A stretch of DNA of 28,098 nucleotides from a virus. Position 1 is the first letter of the stretch; each line of letters opens with the position of its first letter. Location of the stretch: the IMG/VR virus record IMGVR_UViG_3300021957_000228, positions 1 to 28,098 of that record. One strand, written 5' to 3'. Below the pieces are notes generated by a model. That model saw only the letters and a program-made list of their open reading frames with translations. It did not search any database and was not told the DNA's origin. Positions 462 to 12,804 of the stretch are shown piece after piece. Made by a program: the position numbers and the translations under genes.

Positions 462-1985
462 ATGAATATAATAGATAGAGTTATATTAGAATGGTCGTAT
501 AAGACCAAAAAAGGATATCCTGACATTAATAGTCAAGAGGATATGGCTTTGTTTGAATCTATATTTGGTTTTATTCCTTTATTAAATGAAGATAAAGATC
601 TAGTAAACCTTATTAAGAGTAAAATAAACAGATACGGTGATATAGAAGCTACTGCAGGTACATCTAAGATTGTTTTAAAATTTTCTGAAATTCCATCTAG
701 AGGAGCAAGTTCAAGCACACTTAGAGGAGAGGTATTTACAGAATTAGAAAAACTAGCTAACCAAGAAGAAGACATAACCTCTTACACTAAAGCCAGATCA
801 TCGAGTTCTTCAGTAGGGCAATCATTACTCACGTTTAGAGGAAATGATTATTCGATTATAGTAAAAGGAACAGCAGCAGAAGATAGTGCAGATACAGATG
901 TAAAAGAAGGTTTAGTTTCTTTATTCTATGTTAGTGATATTACTTCACCATTTACAGTAGAAAACATTTCAGAAAGAGCAGAACGTTTAATAAGTACAAT
1001 GCCAGCAGAAATTCCTGGAGAAGATTCAACTAGCACCAAAAAAATTGTTTCATACTTATCAGCGCTTGAACCTAAAAACTCGCATGTAAACTTTGTTAAC
1101 CAACCTCTATCTAGTGCTCTTGCTATTAAGGAAAAATACCCTAAAGCTAAACTTATACGTTCAGGAAAATTTGATGAGATAAGAAGTAAGGCCAAACAAC
1201 TTACCGGATATGATAAAGACAAATGGTGCCCCGGAGATTTATACGTACAGTTAAAAGGTATACCCGATATTAATTCTGCAGACAATATTGAAATAATTAA
1301 TAATTTCTTTGTGCAAGAATGGGGAGGTACTACAAACGTAGCAGGTGAAGAAGCTTCTTTAGTAGCAGTTTCTTTAAAACAGCAAAAAGCACAAGGTGGA
1401 AAAGCAAAAGGTCTTCTTGCTAAATACTCTAAAGTTAGATCAGATTATAATTTAACTAATGATGAAAAAGGGTACGATGTAGATCAGTTTAAAGAAGCAA
1501 TCGTACCATTAAGGAGTAAAATAAGCTCTTTAGTTGGATCTGCAGATAATGTGTCGTACAGCTTAGAAAGTATAAGTTTAGAAGATTTTGATATAGATCA
1601 ACTTAGAGGAAAATATGCGGCTTTGAAAGCTATTGAATTCCTATTTAAGAAGTTTCCACCAGGTAAAATAGCTGACGCAGTAGTTGCATTAGCAGGCTTT
1701 GCAATGTCTTTAACTGATGTTAACCCTGGTTTTTTTAAAATAATTGGTAACTCATCAGGAACTAATGCTACAGTAGAATCATACCCTCAAGGTACTAATA
1801 TAGTTCTCTACAATAAAGAAGGGGATTATAAAGATATTAAGATATTAGATACAGATAGTTACGGAGGAGTAAGAATATTATTTCACATACTAAAACGAGG
1901 TAAACCACACTTCGTCCAGATAAGTGCAAGGAACAATGGTAATACTCAAGGCACTTTAGAAATAGAAAAAATAAATCCAATATAG
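462..1985 (+). CDS. Unknown 507-aa protein with possible nuclease-like motif
   Basis: A large protein lying just before the terminase gene; I cannot assign it firmly. The N-terminus (ILEWSYKTKKGYPDINS, residues 8-24) resembles the opening of hypothetical proteins of marine T4-like phages, from memory. The centre has WCPGDLYVQ (W255 to Q263), followed about 40 residues later by EEASLVAVSLKQQKAQGGKA (E296 to A315, with K306). An aspartate, a hydrophobic strand and a strand ending in lysine in this order recall PD-(D/E)xK nuclease folds, although the usual acidic residue two before the lysine is Ser304. A Ser-rich stretch (SSSSSVG) lies near residue 115, and a hydrophobic helix (IADAVVALAGFAMSL) near 405-420. 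T4 has its small terminase gene at this place, but length and content do not fit gp16. An injected or virion-associated enzyme is possible; function is unproven. Confidence 0.8.
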   Translation: MNIIDRVILEWSYKTKKGYPDINSQEDMALFESIFGFIPLLNEDKDLVNLIKSKINRYGDIEATAGTSKIVLKFSEIPSRGASSSTLRGEVFTELEKLANQEEDITSYTKARSSSSSVGQSLLTFRGNDYSIIVKGTAAEDSADTDVKEGLVSLFYVSDITSPFTVENISERAERLISTMPAEIPGEDSTSTKKIVSYLSALEPKNSHVNFVNQPLSSALAIKEKYPKAKLIRSGKFDEIRSKAKQLTGYDKDKWCPGDLYVQLKGIPDINSADNIEIINNFFVQEWGGTTNVAGEEASLVAVSLKQQKAQGGKAKGLLAKYSKVRSDYNLTNDEKGYDVDQFKEAIVPLRSKISSLVGSADNVSYSLESISLEDFDIDQLRGKYAALKAIEFLFKKFPPGKIADAVVALAGFAMSLTDVNPGFFKIIGNSSGTNATVESYPQGTNIVLYNKEGDYKDIKILDTDSYGGVRILFHILKRGKPHFVQISARNNGNTQGTLEIEKINPI

Positions 1986-1992
1986 GATAGTT

Positions 1993-3567
1993 ATGGCAAA
2001 AGATATAAAAAAAATAATAGCACAAGAGTACTTTAAGTGTGCTAAAGATCCGGCCTACTTCATGAGGAAGTATTGCTATATACAGCATCCTACAAGAGGA
2101 CGTATACTATTTAATTTATATCCATTTCAGGATAAAGTATTACATTTATTTAGAGATCATCAATATCTAATTACTCTCAAGTCAAGACAGTTAGGTATAT
2201 CCACTTTAGCTGCAGGTTACTCTCTGTGGCTTATGTTGTTTCATAAGGATAAGAACGTACTTGCTCTAGCAACAACTCAAGCTACTGCAAGAAACTTAGT
2301 ATCTAAGACTATGTTTATGTATGATCAACTACCTAAATGGTTAAGATTACCAGCAGTAGAGAAAAATAAATTATCACTTAGACTAAAGAATGGATCGAAA
2401 ATTACAGCTAAATCTTCTAACGCCGATGCCGCAAGGTCAGAGGCAGTATCACTACTGCTTATCGATGAAGCAGCCTTTATTGATAACATTCAAGAAACGT
2501 TTACAGCAGCACAACAAACCTTAGCAACAGGTGGACAGTGTATGGCATTATCAACTCCTAACGGAATTGGTAACTGGTTCCATCAAACATGGGAAAAAGC
2601 AGAAAGCGCAGAAAATAGCTTTGTTCCTATTAAATTACCATGGACAGTACATCCAGAAAGAAACCAAGAATGGAGAGAACAACAAGACTCAGACCTTGGT
2701 CCTAGAATGGCTGGACAGGAATGTGATTGTGACTTCTTAGCTTCTGGAGATACTGTATTCGAACCAGATGACATGATGTTTTATGAACAAACATACTTAA
2801 AGGATCCTTTAGAGAGGAGAGGTGTTGACGGTAATTTATGGATTTGGGAAGGAGTTGATTACACTAAATCATATATGGTTGTAGCAGATGTAGCTCGAGG
2901 AGACTCTGCAGATTATTCTGCATTCCACGTATTTGATGTAGAAACCTGTACTCAAGTTGGTGAATACAAAGGTAAGTTATCTCCTAAAGATTTTGGAAAT
3001 GTACTAGTAGGAATAGCAACAGAATACAATCAGGCATTATTAGTAGTAGAAAACGCAAACATTGGTTGGGCTACGATAGAACAGATAATGGAACGTCAAT
3101 ATACAAATCTATACTATAGTACTACATCTCAAATGGAAACTGTAGAATCATATATGAGCAAATTTGAAAGAGATAAACTAGTTCCAGGCTTTACTATGTC
3201 TGTTAGAACTAGACCTTTAGTAATTGCTAAGATGATTGAATACATAAGAGAAAGAGGTGTTACCATACAGTCTAAGAGGTTATTAGGAGAGATGAGAGTA
3301 TTTGTATGGAAGAATGGAAAACCTCAAGCACAGATTAATTACAACGATGATTTACTTATTTCAGCAGCAACAGCACTATATGTTAGAGATACTGCTCTAA
3401 GACTAAGACAGCAAGGTATGGACCTAGCACGAGCACAGTTATCATCTTTTAGTAACCTTAACTCAAGAAACAAAGCAATCATAAATACAGTTGGAAACCA
3501 GCAAAATAATCCGTATATTGTAGATAACGGACGTACTCAAGAAGATATTTCCTGGTTATTAAAATAG
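1993..3567 (+). CDS. 17: Terminase large subunit (gp17-like)
   Basis: This is the DNA-packaging motor ATPase and nuclease, which docks on the portal, translocates DNA into the prohead and cuts the concatemer. The ATPase part shows a Walker A-type loop SRQLGIST (residues 64-71), Walker B with catalytic glutamate LLLIDEAAF (154-162; D158, E159) and a coupling motif ALSTPNG (185-191). The RNase H-like nuclease part shows acidic residues in VADVARGDSADYSAF (D299), LVVENANIG (E353) and NYNDDLL (D452/D453). The length (524 aa) is somewhat shorter than T4 gp17 at 610. The Walker A lysine of T4 (SRQLGKTT) is isoleucine here, a deviation seen in other phage terminases, where a basic residue earlier in the loop is thought to compensate. 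The gene starts 7 bases after the preceding stop and ends in TAG just before a promoter-like motif and the portal gene. Confidence 0.96.
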   Translation: MAKDIKKIIAQEYFKCAKDPAYFMRKYCYIQHPTRGRILFNLYPFQDKVLHLFRDHQYLITLKSRQLGISTLAAGYSLWLMLFHKDKNVLALATTQATARNLVSKTMFMYDQLPKWLRLPAVEKNKLSLRLKNGSKITAKSSNADAARSEAVSLLLIDEAAFIDNIQETFTAAQQTLATGGQCMALSTPNGIGNWFHQTWEKAESAENSFVPIKLPWTVHPERNQEWREQQDSDLGPRMAGQECDCDFLASGDTVFEPDDMMFYEQTYLKDPLERRGVDGNLWIWEGVDYTKSYMVVADVARGDSADYSAFHVFDVETCTQVGEYKGKLSPKDFGNVLVGIATEYNQALLVVENANIGWATIEQIMERQYTNLYYSTTSQMETVESYMSKFERDKLVPGFTMSVRTRPLVIAKMIEYIRERGVTIQSKRLLGEMRVFVWKNGKPQAQINYNDDLLISAATALYVRDTALRLRQQGMDLARAQLSSFSNLNSRNKAIINTVGNQQNNPYIVDNGRTQEDISWLLK

Positions 3568-6589: not shown

Positions 6590-8842
6590 ATGAGAACAGC
6601 AACAGAAAAATATCACGCGGTACTAGAAGGTAAACTTCAAGAAGCAGAATTTGTCCGTCAAATGAGACAAGCATATCCGCAATTTATCACCCAGTGGAAC
6701 GGATATAAAGATTCAATATCTATACTTAAACAAAAAAACCTTATTTTTGAAAAGAAAGAAGCAACAGTAAAAGATATTGATGTAATTGCAGATCAATTTC
6801 CTCTTAATACAATAGAAAGAGGTATTGATATGGAATTAGAAGCTAAGGGTATAGATTCAACAGGAAATGTATCTAAAGAAGATTATATGAAAGCTAGGGT
6901 TAAGGTAATAGCTAACCTCCAGAAAGATGCTAATCATTATATTAATCTAGTTGCTGGAGAATCAGCTAAAGTAGATAAGCATGATAAAATGGTTGAGCCT
7001 AAAAAAGGTAATGAAGTAGATGTTCACAATGGACTTAAGAAAGCTGATTTAAAAGAAAATTATACTAAACCAGTAAACGAATACGATCAAACAGACGCAG
7101 TAGCTGACTACATTAAAGATTATTATAGAAATCCAAAAACTGGTAAGAGTCTAATTGATGATGAAATCATTAGCGACTTTTATAAGACTCACCCTGAATG
7201 GGAAGAACAAGCAGATGGCTCTGAACAAGGTATGCAAGACGTACTAGATAACTTTCAAGAGTTTTTATCAGTAAATTACGAATCAGGAGTTGATTATATG
7301 CAAGAAAAAGTTGCTAAGTCTGCAGAAGATGTTATTGACCCAGCAGACTATGGAGCAATAGGCCAAGGATACTTAAAAGGATTTAATAAACCTCATTCAC
7401 TAGATGCAGATCAATTAGAAACTTTAGGTAGAAAAATAGTTGATAGTCTCCATAAAGGAGATTTTGATGCTGCTAAAGCTAAGTTTGTAGCAGAGGCAAT
7501 GTCTGATGATGAAATGAAAAAGATTGCTAAATACGGTAAAGATACTGATATGTCAGCAATTGATAATCTTTATAAGTTAGGACAGAAGTTTACTACTGAT
7601 TTTGATTACGAAGGAATGTTAAAAGCAGGAACGAGAGTAAGACTAAATACTCCTGTTGACCAACTACAACAATTATTTGATTCATTTGAAGATGTTAATT
7701 ACCATAGAGAAGGAGAATTTCTTTCTTATGCAATAGATGCTATAAAAGAAAAAGATAAAGCAGCAGCTTTAAATTATATTAAAGATTTTAAAAAAGCTTG
7801 TAAGAAAACACTTGAATCATTTAATGAAGGCGCTTCTAAAGTTAGAAAGCAACTTGAAGAAGTTGAAGAAGTAATTAACGAAAGAGTAGGTAGCTTGCAA
7901 GAGTTTATTGCTCTTATTAAAGACAGAGCTGAAGAAAACGGTACTACAGAAAGAGAAGAAGCAGAAGAGGTAATGTACGCTATAGGAGATCATTACAACA
8001 TTGGTGTTGATATTATGAAAGGTCCTTGGGATGACGACAATGGAGTAAACGAAGGTAGACGTAGAAAGACTCAAGGAGGTAAAGTAGTAACTGAAAATGA
8101 CTACGAAACTGGAGGGTATGTAGAAAGCATGGGTCCTTTATTTGATAAAGGCGTTAATATGTTAATTAAAGCTTGGGAAGAGTGGAAAATGGGGCCAATG
8201 ACAGAGCCTGGAATGATAGAGTTTGCTAAAAAAGACGTACTAAGTTACTTAGAAACTCAATTTATGGTTGAGAATTTAGAAGAAAAGAAAGGTACAGATC
8301 ACGACGATGACGGAGATATAGATAAAGAAGACTATATGGCCAGTAAAGATGCTGCTATTAAAAAAGCAATGGGTAAGGAGAAGATAGTTAAGGAAAATAT
8401 TAAATCTATAATTCTTAAGGTATTAGAAGAAGGTGTAATAAATGAAGCTGCAACAAATGCATTAGCGGAATTCTCTGAAACATACGGAGGATACGAAGGT
8501 ATGAAACAAGCTATTATATCACTACAGGATGTTGTAACTGATATTGAATCTTATTACGATAAAACTAGAACTAAGATACAGAAAGTATACGATACTTTAG
8601 GGGATATTAGAAATGAAGAAGGATTAAAAGTAGGAGGCTTTTTAGCACCAGCAATCGAACAAGCATTCAATAAAGATTTAAGACCAGCTGTTAAAGGAGG
8701 ATTTACTAAAGGATTAAACCAACCTAAAGTTAGAGTAATATCTCAAGCAGACATAGATGCTCATAACTCAGGTGCAAATCCTCTAGGAGAAGAGGAAAAA
8801 CAAAACGTATTCAGCCCAAATACAATAAACGGAGCATTATAA
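6590..8842 (+). CDS. Large head-region protein with EF-hand-like loop
   Basis: A 750-aa, acidic, mainly helical protein between the portal/core genes and the prohead protease. Near the C-terminus, residues 570-581 (DHDDDGDIDKED) fit a 12-residue EF-hand-type calcium loop: acidic at positions 1, 3, 5 and 12, glycine at 6 and isoleucine at 8. It is followed by YMASKDAAIKKAMGK, a pairing I recall from structural proteins of marine T4-like phages. The N-terminus has LQE at residues 16-18 followed by alanine, a fit to gp21-type cleavage, and INEA near residue 623 is another candidate. The N-terminal region (FVRQMRQAYPQFITQWNGYKDS, split here from residue 21) appears to be a separate conserved module. 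I infer a processed internal or core head protein, perhaps cut into several pieces. No enzyme motif is visible. It lies 32 bp after the 64-aa gene and 16 bp before the protease. Confidence 0.85.
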   Translation: MRTATEKYHAVLEGKLQEAEFVRQMRQAYPQFITQWNGYKDSISILKQKNLIFEKKEATVKDIDVIADQFPLNTIERGIDMELEAKGIDSTGNVSKEDYMKARVKVIANLQKDANHYINLVAGESAKVDKHDKMVEPKKGNEVDVHNGLKKADLKENYTKPVNEYDQTDAVADYIKDYYRNPKTGKSLIDDEIISDFYKTHPEWEEQADGSEQGMQDVLDNFQEFLSVNYESGVDYMQEKVAKSAEDVIDPADYGAIGQGYLKGFNKPHSLDADQLETLGRKIVDSLHKGDFDAAKAKFVAEAMSDDEMKKIAKYGKDTDMSAIDNLYKLGQKFTTDFDYEGMLKAGTRVRLNTPVDQLQQLFDSFEDVNYHREGEFLSYAIDAIKEKDKAAALNYIKDFKKACKKTLESFNEGASKVRKQLEEVEEVINERVGSLQEFIALIKDRAEENGTTEREEAEEVMYAIGDHYNIGVDIMKGPWDDDNGVNEGRRRKTQGGKVVTENDYETGGYVESMGPLFDKGVNMLIKAWEEWKMGPMTEPGMIEFAKKDVLSYLETQFMVENLEEKKGTDHDDDGDIDKEDYMASKDAAIKKAMGKEKIVKENIKSIILKVLEEGVINEAATNALAEFSETYGGYEGMKQAIISLQDVVTDIESYYDKTRTKIQKVYDTLGDIRNEEGLKVGGFLAPAIEQAFNKDLRPAVKGGFTKGLNQPKVRVISQADIDAHNSGANPLGEEEKQNVFSPNTINGAL

Positions 8843-8858
8843 TTAATATAATATAACT

Positions 8859-9437
8859 ATGGCACAACTACTAGTAGATATTACACCATTTAAATCAATT
8901 CTTAGAGAATCTAAGGAAAGACCCGGTGTATACGAAGTCGAAGGGGTAATGCAAAGAGCAGTATCTAAAAATCAAAACGGACGTACATATAGTAAGCCTA
9001 TTTTAGAAAGAGAATCAGCTAAATACATAAAAGAGTTTGTAGAGAATGGTAATGCCTTTGGAGAACTTGATCACCCTGAGTCTCCTATTGTCTCTCTTAA
9101 GAACGCATCTCATATAGTAAAAGACTTATGGTGGAAAGGAAACGATCTTATGGGACGTGTAGAACTACTAAATACTCCTTCCGGAAACATCGTAAAAGAA
9201 ATTATAAAAGCAGGACACACAATCGGTATTTCATCTAGAGGTACTGGATCAGTTCAACAAACAAATGAAGGTACTTTAGAAGTTCAAGACGATTTTGAAT
9301 TAGTATGTTGGGATTTTGTTTCAAATCCTTCAACTCATGGAGCATTTATGAACCCAGTAGCCTTATCAGAAGGTAAAATAAAAGTATCTAAATTTCATAA
9401 CTTAGATTGCATTATAAACGACATACTAAGAGCATAA
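8859..9437 (+). CDS. 21: Prohead maturation protease (gp21-like)
   Basis: A serine protease that is packaged in the prohead and cleaves scaffold, capsid and internal proteins before DNA filling. At 192 aa it is close to the usual length. Catalytic motifs of the family are visible: GELDHPES with H72, GISSRGTGS with S125/S126 as nucleophile candidates, and DFVSNPSTHGAF (152-163), which follows the nucleophile in this family. The N-terminal domain has a SKNQNGRTYSKPIL stretch typical of prohead proteases. It sits just before the scaffold and capsid genes, as in T4. Its TAA shares a base with the ATG of the next gene. There is no Shine-Dalgarno sequence; the leader is AT-only (AATTAATATAATATAACT). 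Confidence 0.93.
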   Translation: MAQLLVDITPFKSILRESKERPGVYEVEGVMQRAVSKNQNGRTYSKPILERESAKYIKEFVENGNAFGELDHPESPIVSLKNASHIVKDLWWKGNDLMGRVELLNTPSGNIVKEIIKAGHTIGISSRGTGSVQQTNEGTLEVQDDFELVCWDFVSNPSTHGAFMNPVALSEGKIKVSKFHNLDCIINDILRA

Positions 9438-10024
9438 TGGAAAATAGTTTTAACTTAAGAAAATTCTTATCTGAAAATAAATTAACTACTAACAGTAGGG
9501 TATTAGCAGAAACTGAAATATTAAAGGAAAGCGATGAAAACCAATTAGGAGCAGAACTTGCAAAAGCAATGGAAGCTGAATTTGGTAAAGACGGAGAAAA
9601 TGTAAACGAAGTCATTACTACTGTAGGTATACTCTCTTGGGCATTAGCTTCTAATACAGTTCTTGATATCTTAGGTAAGTATGCAGCAAAAGGATTTAGA
9701 AAAGCAGGCTTAGAAAAAGCAGCAGATAAAGCAGAAGCAGTACATAAGTGGGCACATAACAATGAAGTCAATATAGTTAAAGCAATTGCAGGTTTCTTAA
9801 AGCCTTTCGTTAAAGATGAGAAAAAAAGACAATTAGTTGCTAAAGGTTTATTTATTGCAATGTTAGCAGGACTTGGAGTCAAAGCAGGAGTTGGAGCACT
9901 AAATGCACTAAGAGGTGCAAATGTAGCCACAGCAACCATCTCAGCAGTTAAAGCAGCATTAAAAGGAAGAGACATAGCTGTTGTTGCAGGAGAAATAGCA
10001 GGTGCCGTTGCAGCATCAACGTAA
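9437..10024 (+). CDS. Candidate internal head protein with targeting peptide
   Basis: I start this 195-aa protein at the ATG at 9437 rather than one 30 bases upstream. The later start overlaps the protease stop (TAATG, as at three other junctions), and it places the peptide FNLRKFLSENKL at the N-terminus, matching the protein at 147. A gp21-type site (LSE, residues 11-13) would remove this peptide. Residues 55-75 and 125-195 are Ala/Gly/Val-rich with hydrophobic segments (for example GLFIAMLAGLGVKAGVGAL), so the mature part may associate with membrane or with DNA-packed interior surfaces. The section AHNNEVNIVKAIAGFLKPFV is amphipathic. Proteins of this layout are, from memory, frequent in marine T4-like phages without a known function. 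An internal head protein, possibly injected, is my inference. Confidence 0.8.
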   Translation: MENSFNLRKFLSENKLTTNSRVLAETEILKESDENQLGAELAKAMEAEFGKDGENVNEVITTVGILSWALASNTVLDILGKYAAKGFRKAGLEKAADKAEAVHKWAHNNEVNIVKAIAGFLKPFVKDEKKRQLVAKGLFIAMLAGLGVKAGVGALNALRGANVATATISAVKAALKGRDIAVVAGEIAGAVAAST

Positions 10025-11217: not shown

Positions 11218-12804
11218 ATGGAATTAAACCAATTATTAGAGAGCTCTAACAATTTTAAGAGCCTACAGGCAGACGCAGCGCGTTTGGCTGATAAGTGGTC
11301 AGCTTCTGGTTTGTTAGAAGGAATTCAAGACGAAAAAGCCAAAAACAACATGGCAATGGTACTTGAAAACCAAGCAAAACAAATCGTAGCTGAAGCAAAC
11401 AATACAGGTGCTTCTGCAGCATCAGGTGCTGGCTTTACAGCTGGTGCAGGTGAGCAGTGGGCTGGTGTTGCTTTACCACTTGTAAGAAAAGTATTCGCTC
11501 AAATCGTAGCGCAAGACTTTGTAAGTGTACAACCAATGAACCTACCTTCAGGTCTAGTATTTTATCTAGACTTTAAATACGGTACTGCTGTAAACGGTAG
11601 AGCAGACGGAGGCAACATGTACGGTAACGTAACTGAAGCTGGTAGTAAAATGGCAGTAGATGCTGACGTTGCTGGTGGTCTTTATGGCGCTGGACAGTTC
11701 GGTTACTCTATCAATGAAAAATCTGCACCAGCAGCAGCAGTAACAGTTGCCGCAGCTCAATTAGCAGATATAGGATATGATGCTGAATTAACATTAGCAG
11801 ATTTCGAAACTGTAGAAATAGCTTTACCAGCAGATGCTGATGCAACAGGTGTAAGAGCTTTTGGTCTTGCAGGAGCAGCAACATTCGCTCAGTATACTAA
11901 AGTTGAAGGTAACAAAGTAGTATTTGTACAAGCAGTAGCAGGTGGTCTAGAAGACGCTGCAGATGTAGTATTAAACTACCACGTAGCACCAGGTGATAAC
12001 TCAAGAGGTGATTTTGAAGGATCTGGAGCAGACGGTAACAATGTTGCCCCTTCAGTTAGTATCCCTGAAATCGACGTACAATTAGCTTCTGAAGCAATTG
12101 TTGCTAAAACTAGAAAGTTGAAAGCACAATGGACTCCAGAATTTGCTCAAGATTTGAATGCTTATCATTCAATTGACGCTGAAGCAGAATTAACTTCAAT
12201 GTTATCTGAGTACATCTCTATGGAGATTGACCTTGAATTACTTGACATGTTAATCTCAGGTGCTGGTACTACTGAAAAGTGGTCTGCAGAGAATAACAAA
12301 GTATGGACAGGAGCTGCATGGTCAACTGCAGGATCTGATTTCTACAATACTCAAGGACAATGGTTCCAAACTTTAGGAACTAAATTGCAAAAAGTATCTA
12401 ACAAAATTCACCAGAAAACGTTAAGAGGTGGAGCAAACTTCGTAGTATGTTCTCCTTCTGTAGCTACAATCCTAGAATCAATTCCTGGATATGCTGCACA
12501 AACTGACGGTGATAAAGCACAATTTGCAATGGGCGTACAGAAAATCGGTTCTTTAGCGAACAGATTCCAAGTATACAAAAACCCTTACATGACTGAAAAC
12601 GTAATCTTAACTGGTTATAGAGGTGGACAGTTCTTGGAAGCAGGTGCAGTATATGCTCCTTACGTACCATTAATGATGACTCCTTTAGTATACGATCCAG
12701 ATACCTTTACACCACGTAAAGGATTGATGACTCGTTACGCTAAGAAGATGATTCGTCCAGAATTCTACGGTAAGATTTTCGTATCTGATTTAGCTCAGAT
12801 ATAA
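11218..12804 (+). CDS. 23: Major capsid protein (gp23-like)
   Basis: The HK97-fold shell protein. Two stretches match T4 gp23 clearly: VQPMNLPSGLVFYLDFKYG (residues 104-122; T4 has VQPMNSPTGQVF) and the region from about 296, with RKLKAQWTPEFAQDLNAYHS and then IDAEAELTSMLSEYI. Length is 528 aa against 521 in T4. T4 gp23 loses 65 N-terminal residues by cleavage after an FLTE; here IVAE at 56-59, followed by alanine, is the matching position. Valine rather than isoleucine or leucine would stand at the third residue before the cut. Residues 155-280 are an Ala/Gly/Val-rich region likely to be an insertion domain. It lies 29 bp after the scaffold gene without its own promoter-like motif, and a strong terminator follows. 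Confidence 0.96.
   Translation: MELNQLLESSNNFKSLQADAARLADKWSASGLLEGIQDEKAKNNMAMVLENQAKQIVAEANNTGASAASGAGFTAGAGEQWAGVALPLVRKVFAQIVAQDFVSVQPMNLPSGLVFYLDFKYGTAVNGRADGGNMYGNVTEAGSKMAVDADVAGGLYGAGQFGYSINEKSAPAAAVTVAAAQLADIGYDAELTLADFETVEIALPADADATGVRAFGLAGAATFAQYTKVEGNKVVFVQAVAGGLEDAADVVLNYHVAPGDNSRGDFEGSGADGNNVAPSVSIPEIDVQLASEAIVAKTRKLKAQWTPEFAQDLNAYHSIDAEAELTSMLSEYISMEIDLELLDMLISGAGTTEKWSAENNKVWTGAAWSTAGSDFYNTQGQWFQTLGTKLQKVSNKIHQKTLRGGANFVVCSPSVATILESIPGYAAQTDGDKAQFAMGVQKIGSLANRFQVYKNPYMTENVILTGYRGGQFLEAGAVYAPYVPLMMTPLVYDPDTFTPRKGLMTRYAKKMIRPEFYGKIFVSDLAQI

Follow-up and report, generated by a model that had tools for sequence, protein, structure and literature searches.

What protein is encoded immediately upstream of the large terminase gene in a T4-type phage, and what it may do for that phage, is the question raised by this locus. 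The window, that is, the whole stretch of DNA that was analysed, comprises the 28,098 nucleotides of IMG/VR virus record IMGVR_UViG_3300021957_000228. The gene under study lies at 462–1985 on the + strand, starts with ATG and encodes 507 amino acids (the protein is called P0001 here); 7 nt separate it from the T4-type large terminase gene at 1993–3567. The initial annotation had read it as an unknown protein with a PD-(D/E)xK-like nuclease layout that might be virion-borne and that lies where T4 has its small terminase, and this interpretation as a whole was partly supported. The gene consists of a constant leader, which the initial annotation had not recognised as a separate module, and an exchangeable body; the bodies have a conserved site pattern, and the locus is fixed. 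The protein is probably a polymorphic, capsid-targeted and ejected nuclease-like payload.

The constancy of the leader was evident from the homology searches. An initial scan of 2.9 million viral contigs with P0001 gave 55 loci, and many of them matched over the first 37–49 residues only; identity there reached 97%, and no similarity followed. A tblastn search of P0001 against phage records gave matches in immuto phages only, confined to residues 1–45. Searches with the leader alignment yielded 204 complete leader genes, which are loci of overlapping searches and not 204 contigs; they encode 112 distinct proteins, and three more genes were truncated. Past residue 37, the 112 distinct proteins fell into 13 BLAST clusters, i.e., at least 13 body types, with bodies of ~270–470 aa, whereas 15 leaders with differing bodies were 78–93% identical to the first of the set. 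The number 13 counts body types and not independent origins because some clusters have modules in common: hhalign showed that clusters 0 and 3 share the first ~80 aligned body positions, and other common stretches were found between clusters 0/11, 1/10 and 4/6. Moreover, the bodies are not taken to share a single ancestor, since the immuto-type profile showed no relationship to the P0001 core in hhalign. A full leader match occurred once per contig in seven long contigs, and a second, marginal match was seen in three contigs. In the AlphaFold model, the leader was formed by helices 3–14 and 25–35. The gene, its parts that are constant or exchanged, and its neighbour are as follows.

462–572, + strand: constant leader, residues 1–37, near-invariant, a predicted capsid-targeting propeptide (leader identities, homology break, modelled helices)
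574–1978, + strand: swappable body cassette, from codon 38 to the gene end (homology to locus L021 ends at 573 and restarts at 1979)
1993–3567, + strand: large terminase, the fixed downstream neighbour (phrog_2, E 3e-49; Terminase_6N)

The end of the leader has the appearance of a processing site. The cleavage rule of the T4 gp21 protease is L/I-X-E, and the T4 internal protein propeptides of 10–19 residues act as capsid targeting sequences, according to PMC9026906. The pattern [LIVM]xE was present within residues 35–48 in 111 of the 112 distinct leader proteins, compared with 13.7% in other 14-residue windows of the same proteins. In P0001 it is represented by LNE, and residues 38–40, just before it, were the sole segment with a predicted local distance difference test (pLDDT) score below 50. 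The window also encodes a candidate enzyme for this cleavage.

582–590, + strand: L41-N42-E43, predicted prohead-protease site, with cleavage expected after E43 ([LIVM]xE in 111/112)
8859–9437, + strand: prohead serine protease (S77), predicted processing enzyme (Peptidase_S77, E 3.9e-35; phrog_207)

Evidence from virions came from a relative. SSCSM1_90 of Synechococcus phage S-SCSM1, which is homologous to the cluster 6 body, carries the label 'virion protein'. Mass spectrometry of S-SCSM1 gave 45 virion proteins, 13 of them of unknown function, with the NMNAT protein ORF91 named among the 45 (PMC9602691); ORF90 may be one of those 13. The suggestion of the initial annotation that the protein is virion-borne and probably injected is therefore backed indirectly, by the constant leader, the prohead-protease-type site, the S77 protease and the label of a sister-body homolog.

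The second question is what the body may do. The motifs on which the initial annotation relied were all confirmed in the translation: W255-C256-P257-G258-D259 and S304-L305-K306 are present where they had been placed in the 507-aa open reading frame (ORF), and the Gly/Lys-rich segment QQKAQGGKAK follows directly after the latter. A body-only scan gave 75 viral loci, many of which had a different N-terminus, and 36 non-redundant homologs (complete, M-starting, at least 480 aa, 21–66% identical to the window protein) were aligned. Of 26 long homologs, 17 had at their N-terminus an additional domain that in Flavobacterium phage immuto is found in gp079, whose gene immediately precedes the leader gene, gp078. 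The residues invariant in all 36 homologs were K148, E149, S217, R233, D253, K254, W255, C256, P257, D259, F283, S304, L305, K306, A310, G313, K384, P422, F424, K426 and D463; E335, downstream of K306, was nearly invariant. When the alignment columns were shuffled, an equally conserved D...[SDE]xK pattern turned up in 2 of 2000 trials. The features of the body are listed below.

591–875, + strand: accessory N-module, residues 44–138, nucleotidyltransferase-like arrangement (VIA match to OASL)
876–1715, + strand: nuclease-like core, residues 139–418, holding E149, D259, S304 and K306 (hhalign to sister and cyanophage cores)
906–908, + strand: E149, candidate metal ligand in helix 145–157 (invariant in 36/36)
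1224–1238, + strand: W255-C-P-G-D259 motif (W, C, P and D invariant in 36/36)
1371–1379, + strand: S304-L-K306, at the end of strand 300–306 (invariant in 36/36; AlphaFold secondary structure)
1716–1982, + strand: C-terminal beta-rich region, residues 419–507 (AlphaFold secondary structure; P422, F424, K426 and D463 invariant)

The same pattern was found in the other bodies of the slot. Each cluster was searched for a conserved D with hydrophobic neighbours followed 6–64 positions later by a conserved [SDE]xK, and upstream conserved E residues were listed. The pattern was present in 13 of 13 clusters against 1.76 expected from column shuffling, each time with at least one conserved upstream E. 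Read from the alignments, the acidic position held Ser in 10 body types and Glu, giving the canonical ExK, in three (clusters 1, 7 and 10). For the diverse and informative clusters, the pattern was matched in 4 of 2000 shuffles (cluster 0) or in none (clusters 1 and 2). In the immuto-type alignment of 17 diverged proteins, the only residues invariant past residue 41 were G169, E172, G194, D195, E204 and K206. Furthermore, the window core was related to cluster 6 and to the cyanophage homologs GC 533 (hhalign 96.3%, E 1.5e-9), a T4-like cyanophage family related to phrog_1462 (S-SSM5_176, Syn1_159, SSCSM1_90), in which the order KWxPxD...SLKK, R, E matches that of the window protein.

These residues might serve another purpose than cutting. 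The protein could be an ejected counter-defence protein in the style of the T4 internal proteins, acting against host restriction or other defences, with a nuclease-like site that binds DNA or mimics a nuclease and makes no cut. T4 injects Ip1, Ip2 and Ip3, which block one type IV restriction enzyme each, a different one in every case (PMC12373910); a polymorphic set would suit variable host defences, and the replacement of Glu by Ser in 10 of the 13 bodies points the same way. However, three body types kept ExK, and D and K were invariant even where little else was conserved, which suggests catalysis and not mimicry. The bodies also exceed the T4 internal proteins, which are given as 8–20 kDa in PMC9026906. 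Hence, a counter-defence role for the protein is unlikely.

Structure prediction gave confident models, with a pLDDT of 88.3 and a predicted template modelling (pTM) score of 0.70 for the whole protein and a pLDDT of 85.9 for the core alone (residues 139–418). In the model, D259 immediately precedes strand 260–263 and K306 ends strand 300–306. The order of helix 145–157, strands 230–232, 260–263 and 300–306, helix 340–359 and strand 364–368 fits a PD-(D/E)xK core, although strand 364–368 is missing from the core-alone model. The clear structural match was that of residues 37–138 to nucleotidyltransferase-like folds (VIA Z 11.3, rmsd 2.3, 98 residues, OASL). A transferase reading of the protein was set aside because this segment contains no family-invariant residue. 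The best matches in the predicted viral structure library were uncharacterised Campylobacter and Synechococcus phage proteins.

Several results count against a nuclease-like payload. The whole model had no PD-(D/E)xK match in the Protein Data Bank (PDB), the best Foldseek hit being a poly(A) polymerase (E 0.0094), and the core alone matched no nuclease there either, its matches being too weak to speak for or against such a fold (Foldseek E at least 2.0, VIA Z at most 5.7). Pfam and PHROGs scans of P0001 gave no usable family, with Spermine_synt_N as the best Pfam match (E 0.0046, below the cut-off); the same scans of the 36 homologs and of representatives of the other body types gave no nuclease family, and profile searches of solved structures gave chance-level matches. 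The pattern test was devised after the motif had been seen, and it is weak for small clusters of near-identical proteins (1379 of 2000 shuffles for cluster 12). The Ser in place of Glu could mean an inactive enzyme, and no relocated acid was identified. The LxE motif is short; in only 71 of the 112 proteins did the first match have the strict form L/I-x-E, and the others had V-x-E except for one miss. With regard to the virion, the link between the label of SSCSM1_90 and the mass spectrometry is one that we infer. In contrast to the window gene, the cyanophage relatives are without this leader, and no terminase was found in the 7 kb stretches around three of them; they thus support the virion residence of such bodies and not the role of the leader. 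Hence, of the proposed PD-(D/E)xK-like layout, the catalytic-type residues stood, being invariant in the family and repeated as a pattern in other bodies of the slot, three of them with ExK, whereas the fold was not matched. The nuclease reading is thus based on conserved residues and not on an established fold. No relative was found when bacterial and archaeal genome contigs were scanned with the immuto-type alignment and the P0001 core, and no bacterial restriction enzyme is therefore proposed as the source.

The absence of a nuclease from the fold searches and the likeness of residues 37–138 to nucleotidyltransferase folds would suit a protein that is no nuclease at all, in which E, D and SxK have a structural role or belong to another enzyme activity, such as an internal structural or nucleotide-binding protein. 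However, the lack of any invariant residue in that segment leaves no conserved transferase site, and the E/D/(S,E)xK pattern is common to 13 body types, three of which have the canonical ExK. The non-nuclease explanation is quite unlikely.

The locus itself was fixed. A terminase lay downstream of 203 of the 204 complete leader genes, and in the remaining case only 1 kb of sequence was left. The gap between leader gene and terminase was at most 14 nt in clusters 2, 3, 4, 6, 8, 9, 11 and 12 and in 24 of 30 cases in cluster 0, and 0.9–2.3 kb lay between them in the immuto-type clusters (1, 5, 7 and 10). A terminase-based search was added to remove the bias of leader-based sampling, and the 80 nearest loci were taken. 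The leader was directly upstream in 59 of them, 14 were cut by the contig end, and seven were others: five had a diverged leader (EWAWRSKxGTPS...), with bodies akin to those of clusters 1 and 10, and the other two were body fragments close to the contig end. All 59 leader loci belonged to known body clusters (12 of 13 represented), and all 64 loci not cut at or near the contig end held a body.

Within this fixed position, the bodies were exchanged. The test set comprised 86 marine-type genes with a usable terminase; the terminases were at least 90% identical at the nucleotide level in 62 pairs, and the body types differed in 22 of these. The window gene (cluster 4) and its counterpart at locus L021 (cluster 8) have terminases 98.0% and leaders 97.3% identical in nucleotides, and their bodies are unrelated. 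Their nucleotide homology covers 460–573, ends after codon 37 and restarts at 1979, just before the stop codon. The breakpoints behaved in the same way in the pair L036/L055 (clusters 2 and 9), whose terminases are 99.6% identical, and the leaders of the pair L084/L021 are 100% identical.

The initial annotation had placed the gene where T4 has its small terminase. The protein might be a nuclease for packaging or head completion, or might replace the small terminase in function, acting on concatemeric DNA together with the adjacent terminase. The fixed position adjoining the terminase would suit this role, and T4-like gp4, a head completion protein, is a packaging-linked virion nuclease with a restriction endonuclease fold (PMC7824862). 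However, unrelated bodies beside terminases that are 98–99.6% identical in nucleotides are hard to square with a partner-specific factor, and the cyanophage body relatives are found away from any terminase in the stretches read around them. This interchange disfavours a small-terminase substitute, and a packaging role is very unlikely.

A homing-type selfish endonuclease, which would cut alleles without itself and spread into the slot by the terminase, is likewise highly improbable: the exchange of cassettes between conserved flanks is precise and PD-(D/E)xK homing enzymes exist, but a capsid-targeting leader would be superfluous in a homing gene, and as every evaluable locus (64/64) already holds a body there is no empty allele to invade, cutting of rival alleles still being possible.

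A nuclease delivered in the virion would require that the DNA of the phage itself be spared. An upstream ORF was found for 100 of the 112 proteins, and one upstream family (n = 74) spans 11 body types, so that no body-matched immunity gene was seen upstream; none was seen downstream in the window either, the intervening genes of the immuto-type clusters being left out of this comparison. Phage immuto (L293, 18607–37015) has annotated QueC, QueD, QueE, FolE, DpdA and QueF, which are genes of 7-deazaguanine DNA modification. A DpdA match was present in 8 of the 13 records examined, and these eight are all the records of at least 113 kb, a count that is weakened as evidence by having no background rate and by one weak match among the eight (29% identity). 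The pattern fits self-protection by DNA modification.

The proposed mechanism of the capsid-targeted payload is as follows. The constant leader (residues 1–37) would bring the protein into the prohead core, where the S77 prohead protease (8859–9437) would probably cleave it behind LNE-43. The part left over, ~464 residues, would stay inside the mature head and pass into the host together with the DNA. The body would then be a DNase-like effector that depends on Mg; its site, E149/D259/SxK306, would be of the PD-(D/E)xK type with Ser at the acidic position. Its likeliest target would be unmodified DNA, whether of the host chromosome, of plasmids or of a competing phage. For the DNA of the phage itself, protection may come from 7-deazaguanine modification or from missing target sites, and not from an immunity protein. 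A single gene of this kind would be retained by the phage clade upstream of the terminase, and the whole body would be exchanged by recombination, with the leader and the terminase serving as homologous arms. The wider proposal is that T4-like phages of aquatic bacteria have a viral polymorphic-effector system: the single slot beside the terminase, with its prohead-targeting leader of ~40 residues, would draw on a pool of interchangeable restriction-enzyme-like nucleases spread over the population, which would leave the head with the genome and destroy unmodified DNA of the host or of rival phages, 7-deazaguanine in the phage DNA taking the place of immunity proteins. It is put forward tentatively and may well not hold. 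In the literature searched, which was mostly open-access, no description of leader-linked nuclease cassettes beside the terminase was found. If the mechanism is true, it would reveal a modular payload slot in a T4-like clade that was sampled here through metagenomic contigs and a single cultured phage of Flavobacterium. It would also provide a natural signal for loading large enzymes into a T4-type head, together with at least 13 nuclease-type bodies. Furthermore, T4-type phages would have a polymorphic-toxin-like system in which DNA modification replaces immunity genes, and a function would be given to the families phrog_1462, phrog_13937 and phrog_2496, whose function has been unknown.

Other observations were made on relatives and neighbours. 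Leaderless homologs of the cluster 11 body, annotated as hypothetical, were found at L304 3875–4699 (Sinorhizobium phage phiM12 gp154) and L307 2992–3909 (phage DLP_6). Leaderless body relatives in L307 and L308 (phages DLP_6 and Syn1) are near a cytidylyltransferase gene, and the protein adjoining them has a ligase-like KxDG motif. Beyond the S77 protease of the window, a 528-aa ORF at 11218–12804 is presumably the major capsid protein, judging by its position and by resemblance; its V-A-E at residues 57–59 resembles the cut site of T4 gp23. A 750-aa protein encoded at 6590–8842, between a portal-like ORF and the protease, is possibly a prohead core protein by its position. The window ORFs 147–461 and 9437–10024 have in common a different N-terminal tag, NFNLRxFLxENKLTxNSRxLxE, which leads into LxE, and four more ORFs with this second tag were found in 150 kb of phage immuto; it looks like another class of head-targeting tag. 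The DNA coding for it (window 9443–9479) recurs at L021 444–480 with 86% identity, and L084 has several upstream copies of related stretches; these may be recombination anchors for small cassettes. The window–L021 homology ends at 139 and restarts at 460, with few bases between in L021 (near L021 665–672). The tagged 104-aa gene (147–461) is thus absent from L021 and is also a presence/absence cassette. In S-SCSM1 (L306), the NMNAT gene lies directly after the body relative, and NMNAT is the protein reported in the virion proteome (PMC9602691).

Besides the cyanophage family GC 533, three known systems are comparable with the leader genes. The first is the T4 internal proteins (IPI, IPII, IPIII and Alt), which, according to PMC9026906, also have variable mature parts behind an N-terminal propeptide with an L/I-x-E-type site after it, and whose genome likewise encodes an S77 prohead protease; this propeptide feature is present in the window protein at the level of sequence, as LNE at 41–43. 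However, their propeptides of 10–19 residues are shorter than the leader of ~37–43 here (PMC9026906), and they are small inhibitors, whereas the bodies here are large and nuclease-like. Unlike the T4 internal proteins, the leader genes have one fixed terminase-side locus and at least 13 interchangeable body types. The second is the CCGG-family restriction enzymes (Cfr10I and NgoMIV), in which D and K are conserved and the acid is absent from the (D/E)xK position; their site is permuted, in the order PD...K...D/E (PMC6344858 and PMC551604). The missing acid of the window protein resembles this permuted site, and kinship is not claimed: the window body had no sequence or fold match to these enzymes, and E149 of the upstream helix is no more than a candidate for the replacing acid. 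The third is the MuF polymorphic toxins of temperate phages, which likewise have a constant phage-head N-terminus and exchangeable C-terminal effectors, many of them nucleases (PMC5576092). The MuF domain had no match to P0001 at E ≤ 1 in the Pfam scan. In contrast to these toxins, the window gene belongs to T4-type phages and is followed by the terminase, with no small immunity-type ORF after it in the window, and all the bodies seen have one common site pattern, unlike MuF effectors. By analogy, the leader genes may combine delivery as in the T4 internal proteins with a modular design as in the MuF polymorphic toxins.
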